Of a stretch of DNA of 46,032 nucleotides, positions 1-1,578 are shown piece after piece. The DNA is from Gemmatimonadota bacterium (lineage in GTDB: Bacteria; Gemmatimonadota; Gemmatimonadetes; Longimicrobiales; Gaopeijiaceae), in assembly GCA_009838975.1 (NCBI GenBank), contig VXQO01000103.1, positions 1 through 46,032 on the forward strand, written 5' to 3'. Numbering within the stretch: position 1 is the stretch's first letter; each line of letters opens with the position of its first letter. Both the position numbers and the translations under genes were made by a program. The notes under the pieces were generated by a model, which saw only the letters and a program-made list of their open reading frames with translations, did no database searches and had not been told where the DNA came from.

Positions 1-523
1 GCCCCCGCTCCCACGCCTTCGCATCCCCCTCCGACCGGAAGGCCACGATGTTCCGTCAGGTGAAGCCGATGTCGTCCCAGAAGTCGCGGACGGGCACGGC
101 GAAGCGGACGACTGCACCGGCGGGGTGGAGACGGCGTCCTGTCACGGTGAGTTCGAAGCGCTCGCCCGAGCCTGGGCAGATCGTCGGCGTGCGCCCGTCG
201 GTATCGAGCAGCAGCGGTATCGCGATCGCATCCCAGGCACAATTGGCCCAGTACGCCCGGGTCGCGGTCTCGACACGGTAAGGGGTGGGGACCGCGGAAA
301 AGGGGTGGGCCATCAGGACTTCGCCATGCTCGTCGAGGACCAGCACGTGCACGCCGGCGAGAAAGCGAAGGGCGTCGTCGACCTCGGTGCCGCTTGTGTC
401 GAGTTGGTCGGTGAGCTCTGCTCGGGTCGGTACCGACCCAATGTCGCGGACTCGCCGATAGAGGTGCCCCCGCAGACGCCAAGCGAAGCCTTCGGCCCGG
501 GCAACCCCTGCCCTGCCCGTCAA
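1..523 (-). CDS. MerB-like organomercurial lyase family protein, probable selenoprotein (3' end outside window)
   Basis: Family function: protonolysis of carbon-mercury bonds. Counting from a TTG at 523 (which overlaps the upstream TGA as TTGA, suggesting coupling), the protein has an N-terminal winged-helix-like part (13-80), the conserved AHPFSAVPT stretch (72-80), then YWANCAWDA with Cys95 and Asp98, Cys116 in a C-P-x-S-G-E turn, and FAVPVRDFWDDIGFT (141-155). Residue 156 is an in-frame TGA (56-58). Reading on gives R-N-I-V-A-F-R-S-E-G-D-A-K-A-W-E-R to the window edge, which is the normal continuation of this family. Cys95/Asp98/Cys116/156 line up with MerB Cys96/Asp99/Cys117/Cys159 (numbering from memory), so UGA sits at a catalytic cysteine. 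A SECIS-like hairpin follows. A conventional caller would end the gene at 56 or start at ATG 568. Alternatives are a decayed gene or a TGC-to-TGA base error. The substrate may not be an organomercurial. Confidence 0.85.
27..42 (-). promoter_or_regulatory. Putative bacterial SECIS hairpin downstream of the MerB-like UGA
   Basis: On the minus strand, 13 nt after the UGA at 58-56, the RNA CCUUCC-GGUC-GGAGGG forms a 6-bp stem (42-37 with 32-27, including one U-G pair) closed by a GGUC loop at 36-33. The E. coli fdhF SECIS, as I recall it, also has a GGUC apical loop at nearly the same distance from its UGA (nucleotides 22-25 there, 23-26 here, counting the U of UGA as 1). Such an element recruits SelB with Sec-tRNA. 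Fold and spacing are read directly; function is inferred. Confidence 0.7.
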
Positions 524-1578
524 CCCGCCCCCTGCCGGGTGGTCCAGATGAGCACCCAACCTCCACACGCCCGGTTGCGGCGCCTCTCCCAGATCTCGAT
601 CAACTCCACGGACTCCGGCGCAATGTCGTCAATGAACAGCCTGCGCTGAACGTCCAGATCGGTCCGCCGCCGGAATCCGTCCAGGTACAGCGAGACGCGC
701 TGGTTGCACTGCCCGAGGTACAGGTGGGGCGACCCCGATGCGAGAGCACCGACGCGGATGCCCGGCACCTGCCTGAACACGTCGGTAAGCTGGGCGGGGG
801 CGAGTTCGTCGAGCATGGGTCGGGTGACCGCATACGTCCGCTTTCCGTACCGGTTCATGTTGTCATGAATGCCGTCCCCTGCCATGTGCAGTGAACGTAT
901 TTCGGTTTCGATCGGCCTCGGTGCAGCCGTTTCGACCATCATCTCGACTCTGGCGGCAGTGGTCCGGTCCGGGCTGAGCGCCACGGGCGCAGCTCGCTGG
1001 CCGTAGCCGGTCGACTCCACCTCGAATCGGACCACTGGATCCCGCAGATCCCCGAACACCGCCAGCCCGTCCAGGTCGCTGAGGCGGTTTTGCCCCTCCG
1101 CCAGCGACACCAGAGCCCCCTCGATCGGATCTCCGGATGCGCCATCCACAACCCTCACCAGGAGAATGCCGGGCGCTTCCACGTCGATGTCTCTTGTCTT
1201 TTCCATGTACAGCGTCACTTCACCCGCATGGATTACATCGAGATGACCCGTCAATCGGTCGTATCCCCACCTCCTCACACTGACCCAGTAGCGGCCTGCA
1301 GGGATGTCGATCACGGCGCGACCGTCCGCATCGGTCACGTGCCGACCGTCCATGCCGGTAAGCACGATCACGGCCCCGGGCACGGTCACCTCGCTGGCAG
1401 GATCGTATACCCGTGCCGTCAGTCGGACCGTTTCCCCTTCCTGCGGGGCCTCCTGGGCCTCGAGTGTCCGCGCGGACACTGCGGCAGCAAGGGCGATGGC
1501 GGCGAAGAGCACCAGCAGGGCGATGCGAGGCCGATCCCGGTTCGCCCAACGTCCGACAGACACGGTGTTGCTATCCAT
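520..1578 (-). CDS. Exported carboxypeptidase-regulatory-like / TonB plug-domain protein without a barrel
   Basis: 352 aa. A hydrophobic segment at about 19-37, ending before A-Q-E, is a signal peptide or anchor. Two carboxypeptidase-regulatory-like beta-sandwich domains follow (about 50-130 and 138-215), each with the 'G-A-x-V-x-L ... D-x-D-G-x-A' pattern. The C-terminal part (about 250-352) is a TonB-receptor plug-like domain (VFRQVPGIRVG, VSLYLDG, SVELIEIWE), but no beta-barrel follows, so it cannot be a complete receptor. Two cysteines (CNQR, RACGG) could form a disulfide. The reading frame ends in GGGTTGA, where the stop overlaps a TTG start for the MerB-like gene, so the two are probably co-translated. 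The specific role is unknown. Confidence 0.75.
   Translation of the reverse strand: MDSNTVSVGRWANRDRPRIALLVLFAAIALAAAVSARTLEAQEAPQEGETVRLTARVYDPASEVTVPGAVIVLTGMDGRHVTDADGRAVIDIPAGRYWVSVRRWGYDRLTGHLDVIHAGEVTLYMEKTRDIDVEAPGILLVRVVDGASGDPIEGALVSLAEGQNRLSDLDGLAVFGDLRDPVVRFEVESTGYGQRAAPVALSPDRTTAARVEMMVETAAPRPIETEIRSLHMAGDGIHDNMNRYGKRTYAVTRPMLDELAPAQLTDVFRQVPGIRVGALASGSPHLYLGQCNQRVSLYLDGFRRRTDLDVQRRLFIDDIAPESVELIEIWERRRNRACGGWVLIWTTRQGAG

Follow-up and report, generated by a model that had tools for sequence, protein, structure and literature searches.

A MerB-fold protein family with a predicted selenocysteine at the catalytic Cys159 position in at least three bacterial phyla

Our analysis identified a family of MerB-like genes in which an in-frame UGA occupies the position of the catalytic residue Cys159 of the organomercurial lyase MerB. 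Judging from comparative sequence data, these genes constitute a well-supported, but still untested, new selenoprotein family that would be distributed over at least three bacterial phyla. We consider it likely that they encode MerB-fold selenoproteins into which selenocysteine (Sec) is inserted at position 159 through SelB, tRNA-Sec and a hairpin, and which most likely perform MerB chemistry with one change, although no experiment has addressed either Sec insertion or activity. The insertion of Sec at the Cys159 position is strongly supported by sequence comparison, albeit not shown biochemically, whereas cleavage of carbon-mercury or other organometal bonds is inferred from the fold and the invariant residues only, and the true substrate remains open.

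A MerB-like gene with an in-frame UGA

The window analyzed here (the whole stretch of 46,032 bases) is an entire contig (G000:C137) of a 4.5-Mb Gemmatimonadota genome in 162 contigs, the nearest relatives of which, when public genome contigs were scanned with sequence patterns, are also Gemmatimonadota. A gene for a putative MerB-like selenoprotein, assigned on the basis of its Pfam match and its orthologs, is located at positions 2..523 of the minus strand and is 3'-incomplete due to the contig edge. Its frame reads, in order, YWANCAWDAIAIP, TICPGSGERF, FWDDIGFT, the TGA codon (58-56) and RNIVAFRSEGDAKAWERG; after the TGA it stays open to the end of the contig, where the 3' part of the gene is lost. 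With the TGA read through, the frame matches the Pfam MerB family (PF03243; E = 9.7e-23, 81 bits, cut-off 27), in agreement with an earlier interpretation of this DNA made without database searches (hereafter, the sequence-only reading), which had assigned it to this family.

A TTG codon at 523-521 (minus strand) is a possible start, GTG or TTG codons farther upstream being possible as well; in the orthologs, the start lies ~89-92 codons ahead of the Cys96 codon. The upstream gene (520..1578, minus strand), mentioned for context only, encodes a carboxypeptidase-regulatory-like domain and ends with a TGA stop at 522-520, which overlaps the possible TTG start within the tetranucleotide TTGA; translation coupling is possible.

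In MerB, mercury is bound by Cys96 and Cys159, and Asp99 serves as proton donor to the carbon. When the family profile was aligned to solved MerB sequences, the Sec column fell on Cys159, and the Cys and Asp of the NCAWD motif fell on Cys96 and Asp99. In the window gene, the in-frame TGA that we read as Sec (56..58, minus strand) therefore falls on the Cys159 position according to both the homologs and the solved MerB sequences, as the sequence-only reading had claimed. The TGT codon at 239..241 and the GAT codon at 230..232 (both minus strand) encode the Cys and Asp aligned with Cys96 and Asp99, residues that are invariant in the 56 UGA sequences described below (56/56). The same interpretation had also pointed to a counterpart of Cys117; the TGC codon at 176..178 (minus strand) does align with it, but this Cys is not conserved across the family.

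Conservation of the UGA and of the coding sequence beyond it

Family members were gathered from two samples. The pattern scan of public genome contigs, performed with patterns that left out the UGA position, retrieved 33 relatives, and every one of them that extends to the Sec column has a TGA there. As a second sample, 298 Gemmatimonadota genomes were searched for MerB-family genes, which were present in 61 genomes, 36 of them with a TGA inside the domain. When both samples were pooled and the window included, TGA was found at the Sec column in 56/56 distinct clade sequences with a readable column, so chance is no explanation; the question raised by the sequence-only reading, whether UGA recurs at this position elsewhere, is thus answered by 55 other distinct homologs. 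By record title, the 56 sequences come from Gemmatimonadota, Acidobacteriota and Chloroflexota, and the set spans these phyla at 30-40% protein identity. The residue before the Sec is Thr (a TU motif) in 56/56, and PF03243 is matched by all 37 aligned family members.

One record title looks wrong, since VXNP01000090.1 (L028; 63,144 bases), titled Gammaproteobacteria, has the same protein and the same size as contig C113 of G086 (L084), a genome grouped with Gemmatimonadota. In addition, L022 (VXMI01000086.1) and L111 (G059:C161) represent the same gene, which diverges ~20 codons before the UGA, near the contig end, where an assembly break cannot be distinguished from a real disruption. Phage records contained no match to the family, and the five aligned matches on plasmids were all Cys-type relatives, with no UGA form among them.

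Standard annotation would end the gene at the UGA, and in the window the contig edge prevents the frame from being followed to its end; these are the points in favor of a true stop that leaves a truncated protein or a decaying pseudogene. Nevertheless, the next stop is located 72-82 residues past the UGA in 51/56 genes, mostly at 73 residues, after a conserved ...GLxGxFWxL sequence; the exceptions to this common end are the window gene (contig edge), L037 and L110 (longer open frames), and L058 (86 residues). The natural end of the frame, which the contig edge had hidden from the sequence-only reading, is provided by the full ortholog L021, which is 85% identical to the window protein and ends 73 residues past the UGA. 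Furthermore, on either side of the UGA the closest pairs have dN/dS values of 0.1-0.55, indicating purifying selection, and W166, W190, Y191, R194, G215 and W221 (L021 numbering) are conserved downstream of it. A UGA at the same column in 56 distinct sequences, a downstream part that remains in frame up to a common end, and a dN/dS well below 1 in that part led us to reject a stop or a pseudogene, for which we see practically no chance.

We also rejected, as close to impossible, the idea that UGA is read as an ordinary amino acid owing to an altered code or to a suppressor tRNA, a proposal for which nothing beyond the open frame can be cited. TGA is the final stop in many of the same UGA genes, which implies that the genetic code is unchanged, as well as the normal stop of the gene upstream in the window, and SelB is encoded by all 36 carriers tested.

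Selenocysteine machinery in the carrier genomes

The sequence-only reading would have failed in a genome lacking selB, selC or selD, and all three were found in that of the window. SelB scored 301 bits (cut-off 242), a tRNA-Sec with a UCA anticodon scored 55.8 bits (cut-off 47), and SelD scored 378 bits (L018, G000:C111:54152-55075, minus strand). The tRNA-Sec gene (L010 1-78, G000:C79) is located at a contig start, its first 5' bases being missing from the assembly, and the SelD gene has an in-frame UGA of its own (HGAGUACK), so that SelD is a selenoprotein as well.

Among the sampled carriers of the UGA gene, SelB was over the cut-off in 36/36, compared with 3/7 tested carriers of the Cys/Cys form of the gene described below (Fisher p 0.0003), and tRNA-Sec was over the cut-off in 35/36, compared with 224/298 genomes of the phylum sample. 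The sole carrier without a tRNA-Sec over the cut-off (G123) has SelB and a best match of 45.9 of 47 bits, which may correspond to another tRNA.

A conserved hairpin downstream of the UGA

A stem-loop with a GGUC loop is located at nucleotides 16-31 of the family genes, counting the U of the UGA as 0. In the window, this proposed bacterial SECIS hairpin (27..42, minus strand), identified by comparison, has 6 bp (CCUUCC-GGUC-GGAGGG, with the CCUUCC stem at 42-37, the GGUC loop at 36-33 and the GGAGGG stem at 32-27) and a folding energy of -7.6 kcal/mol as an isolated 16-mer; the 58-nt fragment of the window has a different minimum-energy fold. The case for a real hairpin rests on the comparison, as the DNA is near-identical in the 56 homologs.

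The GGUC loop, with a G in the apical loop, is present in 53/56 UGA genes, and the codons that form the hairpin are TTC CGG TCG GAA/GAG. Arg at +7 is encoded by xGG (CGG or AGG) in 56/56 and Ser at +8 by TCG in 53/53, whereas codons are mixed at the other columns of these genes where Arg or Ser is conserved. The departure from background codon use amounts to 1.43 bits at +7 and 1.24 bits at +8, the next highest column of the gene reaching 0.50. With regard to pairing, the outermost stem pair is UA in 19 distinct sequences and CG in about 17-18, both sides having changed, and its covariation score was reached by 0/500 shuffles and is lowered by sliding the partner. The amino acids encoded at this pair change jointly (Leu/Phe...Glu versus Ala...Gly) and the base pair is kept. 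In 15/55 sequences, one outer stem pair is disrupted. It should be noted that kinship among the sequences inflates figures of this sort, though the set spans phyla.

The same DNA conservation could in principle arise from selection on the peptide FRSE combined with codon bias, with no RNA signal involved, given the high conservation of F157, R158, S159 and E160 in the protein and the failure of whole-window folding energies, evaluated against synonymous resampling, to distinguish UGA genes from Cys genes. In GC-rich DNA this energy test proved too coarse, and we used the column-wise codon and pair counts in its place. The codon departures at +7 and +8, against 0.50 bits at the next column, reject pure codon bias; moreover, the amino acids at the outer pair change together with pairing preserved, and the loop is rarely kept when Cys occupies the column (GGUC at the hairpin position in only 2/19 Cys-type genes). 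We regard an explanation by peptide and codon bias alone as very improbable. The GGUC hairpin that the sequence-only reading had noticed after the UGA is, according to codons and covariation, constrained at the DNA level.

Predicted fold and family tree

An AlphaFold model of the full ortholog, obtained with an alignment of 37 family members, had a mean pLDDT of 95.5. Its best PDB matches were all MerB, with Z 17.9 to MerB2 (5c17) and 14-15 to 3f0o, 3f2f and others, and Foldseek agreed with these matches; the next unrelated PDB row had a Z of 4.4. A distant structural likeness to the copper chaperone NosL was also detected (Z 4.2). The NCBIfam MerB models NF009710/NF033555 gave 53/44 bits for the window protein and 59/52 bits for the full ortholog, and their cut-offs of 193/200 were not met. 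Similarly, the classical MerB trio is only partly met, as Cys96 and Asp99 are present and residue 159 is Sec instead of Cys.

When columns 99 and 159 were masked for tree building, the 56 UGA genes clustered with nine Cys99/Cys159 genes (L055, L060, L062, L064, L069, L076, L086, L124, and L125) in one group, with long branches to other MerB-family genes. The Cys/Cys genes constitute one fully supported clade, the placement of which within the UGA genes is modestly supported (81-84). In all nine of them, a change of Asp99 to Cys (NCxxC) is paired with Cys159, and two members (L124 and L125) are encoded on proteobacterial plasmids. SelB is missing in 4/7 tested Gemmatimonadota carriers of the Cys/Cys form. 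The combination of Asp99 with Cys159 was not encountered in any member of the group, within the limited sampling of a single pattern scan of genome contigs plus the 298 Gemmatimonadota genomes. The tree topology fits a single loss of Sec together with Asp99, a scenario that must remain provisional as long as the group lacks a fixed root.

Genomic context and proposed function

No conserved neighbors were detected in 33 loci from three phyla, in an analysis restricted to Pfam families that did not include Sao models, and no mer families were present among the 25 most frequent neighbor families. MerA was over the curated cut-off in 4/36 carriers, not including the window genome, and was no more frequent in carriers than in the remaining genomes sampled (p 0.52). 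Since mer genes are not found nearby and MerA is not enriched, a mercury role is unsupported by context. At least three genomes (G051, G116, and G165) have a Cys-type MerB-family gene beside the Sec gene, indicating that the two types are not simple substitutes; G271 perhaps also carries both, its second match being a short fragment. On a Streptomyces plasmid (L126), an actinobacterial 'alkylmercury lyase family' gene adjoins genes for a heavy-metal regulator and a copper-binding protein, a hint that some relatives of MerB may act on a different metal from mercury.

It is conceivable, then, that the Sec is real and the protein is not an organomercurial lyase, and that it acts on another organometal or an organometalloid, or takes part in metal storage or delivery. 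Besides the lack of nearby mer genes and of MerA enrichment, the scores of 53-59 bits against a curated MerB cut-off of 193, the long branches that set the family apart from canonical MerB, the co-occurrence of Cys-type MerB-family and Sec genes in some genomes and the resemblance to NosL are compatible with such a role. Against it, the Cys96/Asp99/Sec159 trio is invariant in 56/56 sequences and MerB structures account for all of the best fold matches; we consider it unlikely, without dismissing it.

We favor a scenario in which SelB, tRNA-Sec and the in-gene GGUC hairpin just after the UGA insert Sec at position 159. With MerB chemistry retained, the Cys96 thiolate and the Sec159 selenolate would together hold the metal of an organomercurial (or other organometal), polarizing the carbon-metal bond. 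Asp99 would then protonate the carbon, and the product metal would be passed to cell thiols or another acceptor, a step that we infer from the usual absence of MerA. At neutral pH a selenolate is deprotonated, and it is a tighter mercury ligand than a thiolate, so substrate capture should be better. The sequence-only reading had proposed precisely a selenolate in a carbon-mercury lyase; the Sec part of this proposal is supported, but lyase activity is only inferred from fold and residues, in the absence of a mer operon and, usually, of MerA.

A more specific model, which we advance tentatively and with somewhat less than even confidence, is that of a stand-alone Sec organomercurial (organometal) lyase that functions apart from the mer and SAO systems with a catalytic selenolate ligand. 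Sec may even be tied to the lyase chemistry, considering that, in this lineage, the change from Sec to Cys always occurs with loss of the proton donor Asp99.

In the literature searched, we found no demonstration of a selenium residue as a catalytic mercury ligand. This family would allow a direct test of selenium in that role by comparing a natural Sec enzyme with its Cys variant, and it suggests a capacity for demethylation in the abundant Gemmatimonadota, Chloroflexota and Acidobacteriota. Such a capacity would escape MerB surveys that rely on Cys96/Asp99/Cys159 (such as PMC8261052), since with standard gene calling the protein ends ahead of residue 159. In addition, the family is a clear-cut case of a Sec signal that has become frozen into the coding sequence in different phyla.

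Comparison with known systems

The Sec family has the MerB fold (Z 14-18), a winged-helix-like N-terminal part, Cys96, Asp99 and the position of residue 159 in common with MerB, at ~22-24% identity to solved MerB sequences. In contrast to MerB, it has Sec in place of Cys159, lacks a conserved Cys117, has a C-terminal part of the form WYxxRL...GLxGxFWxL, and is found outside mer operons. The Cys/Cys clade is its nearest relative by tree, with the same NC-W- and T/F-C- surroundings and a similar C-terminus, but has Cys in place of Asp99 (giving CxxC) together with Cys159, and its function is unknown.

Two reviews list one MerB-like selenoprotein family, SaoL (NF040728), which belongs to the clostridial SAO system (PMC9312934; PMC13188914). 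SaoL is a MerB-like organometallic lyase of the Sec-assisted organometallic system (Haft and Gwadz 2023, cited in PMC13188914), and it is listed with the motif CU (PMC13188914 table). We found no literature description of a TU MerB-fold family, in a search that did not reach two key papers by Haft and colleagues (2023, 2025), and no model in NCBIfam of June 2026 claims it. Both SaoL and the family described here are MerB homologs predicted to contain Sec, and it can be inferred from the profile position that the Sec of SaoL probably occupies the same site or an adjacent one, the SaoL model ending near this column. Even so, the SaoL model gave only 35.5 bits for the window protein and 36.2 bits for the nearest full-length ortholog, and its cut-off of 140 was not met. 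Unlike SaoL with its CU motif, the Sec family has TU in 56/56 sequences, occurs in different phyla, and, as far as Pfam families tell, shows no SAO-like conserved neighborhood. We rate the TU family not as the first Sec-containing MerB-like protein, but as a second and wider Sec-containing MerB-fold family, with its predicted Sec at the catalytic Cys159 column.
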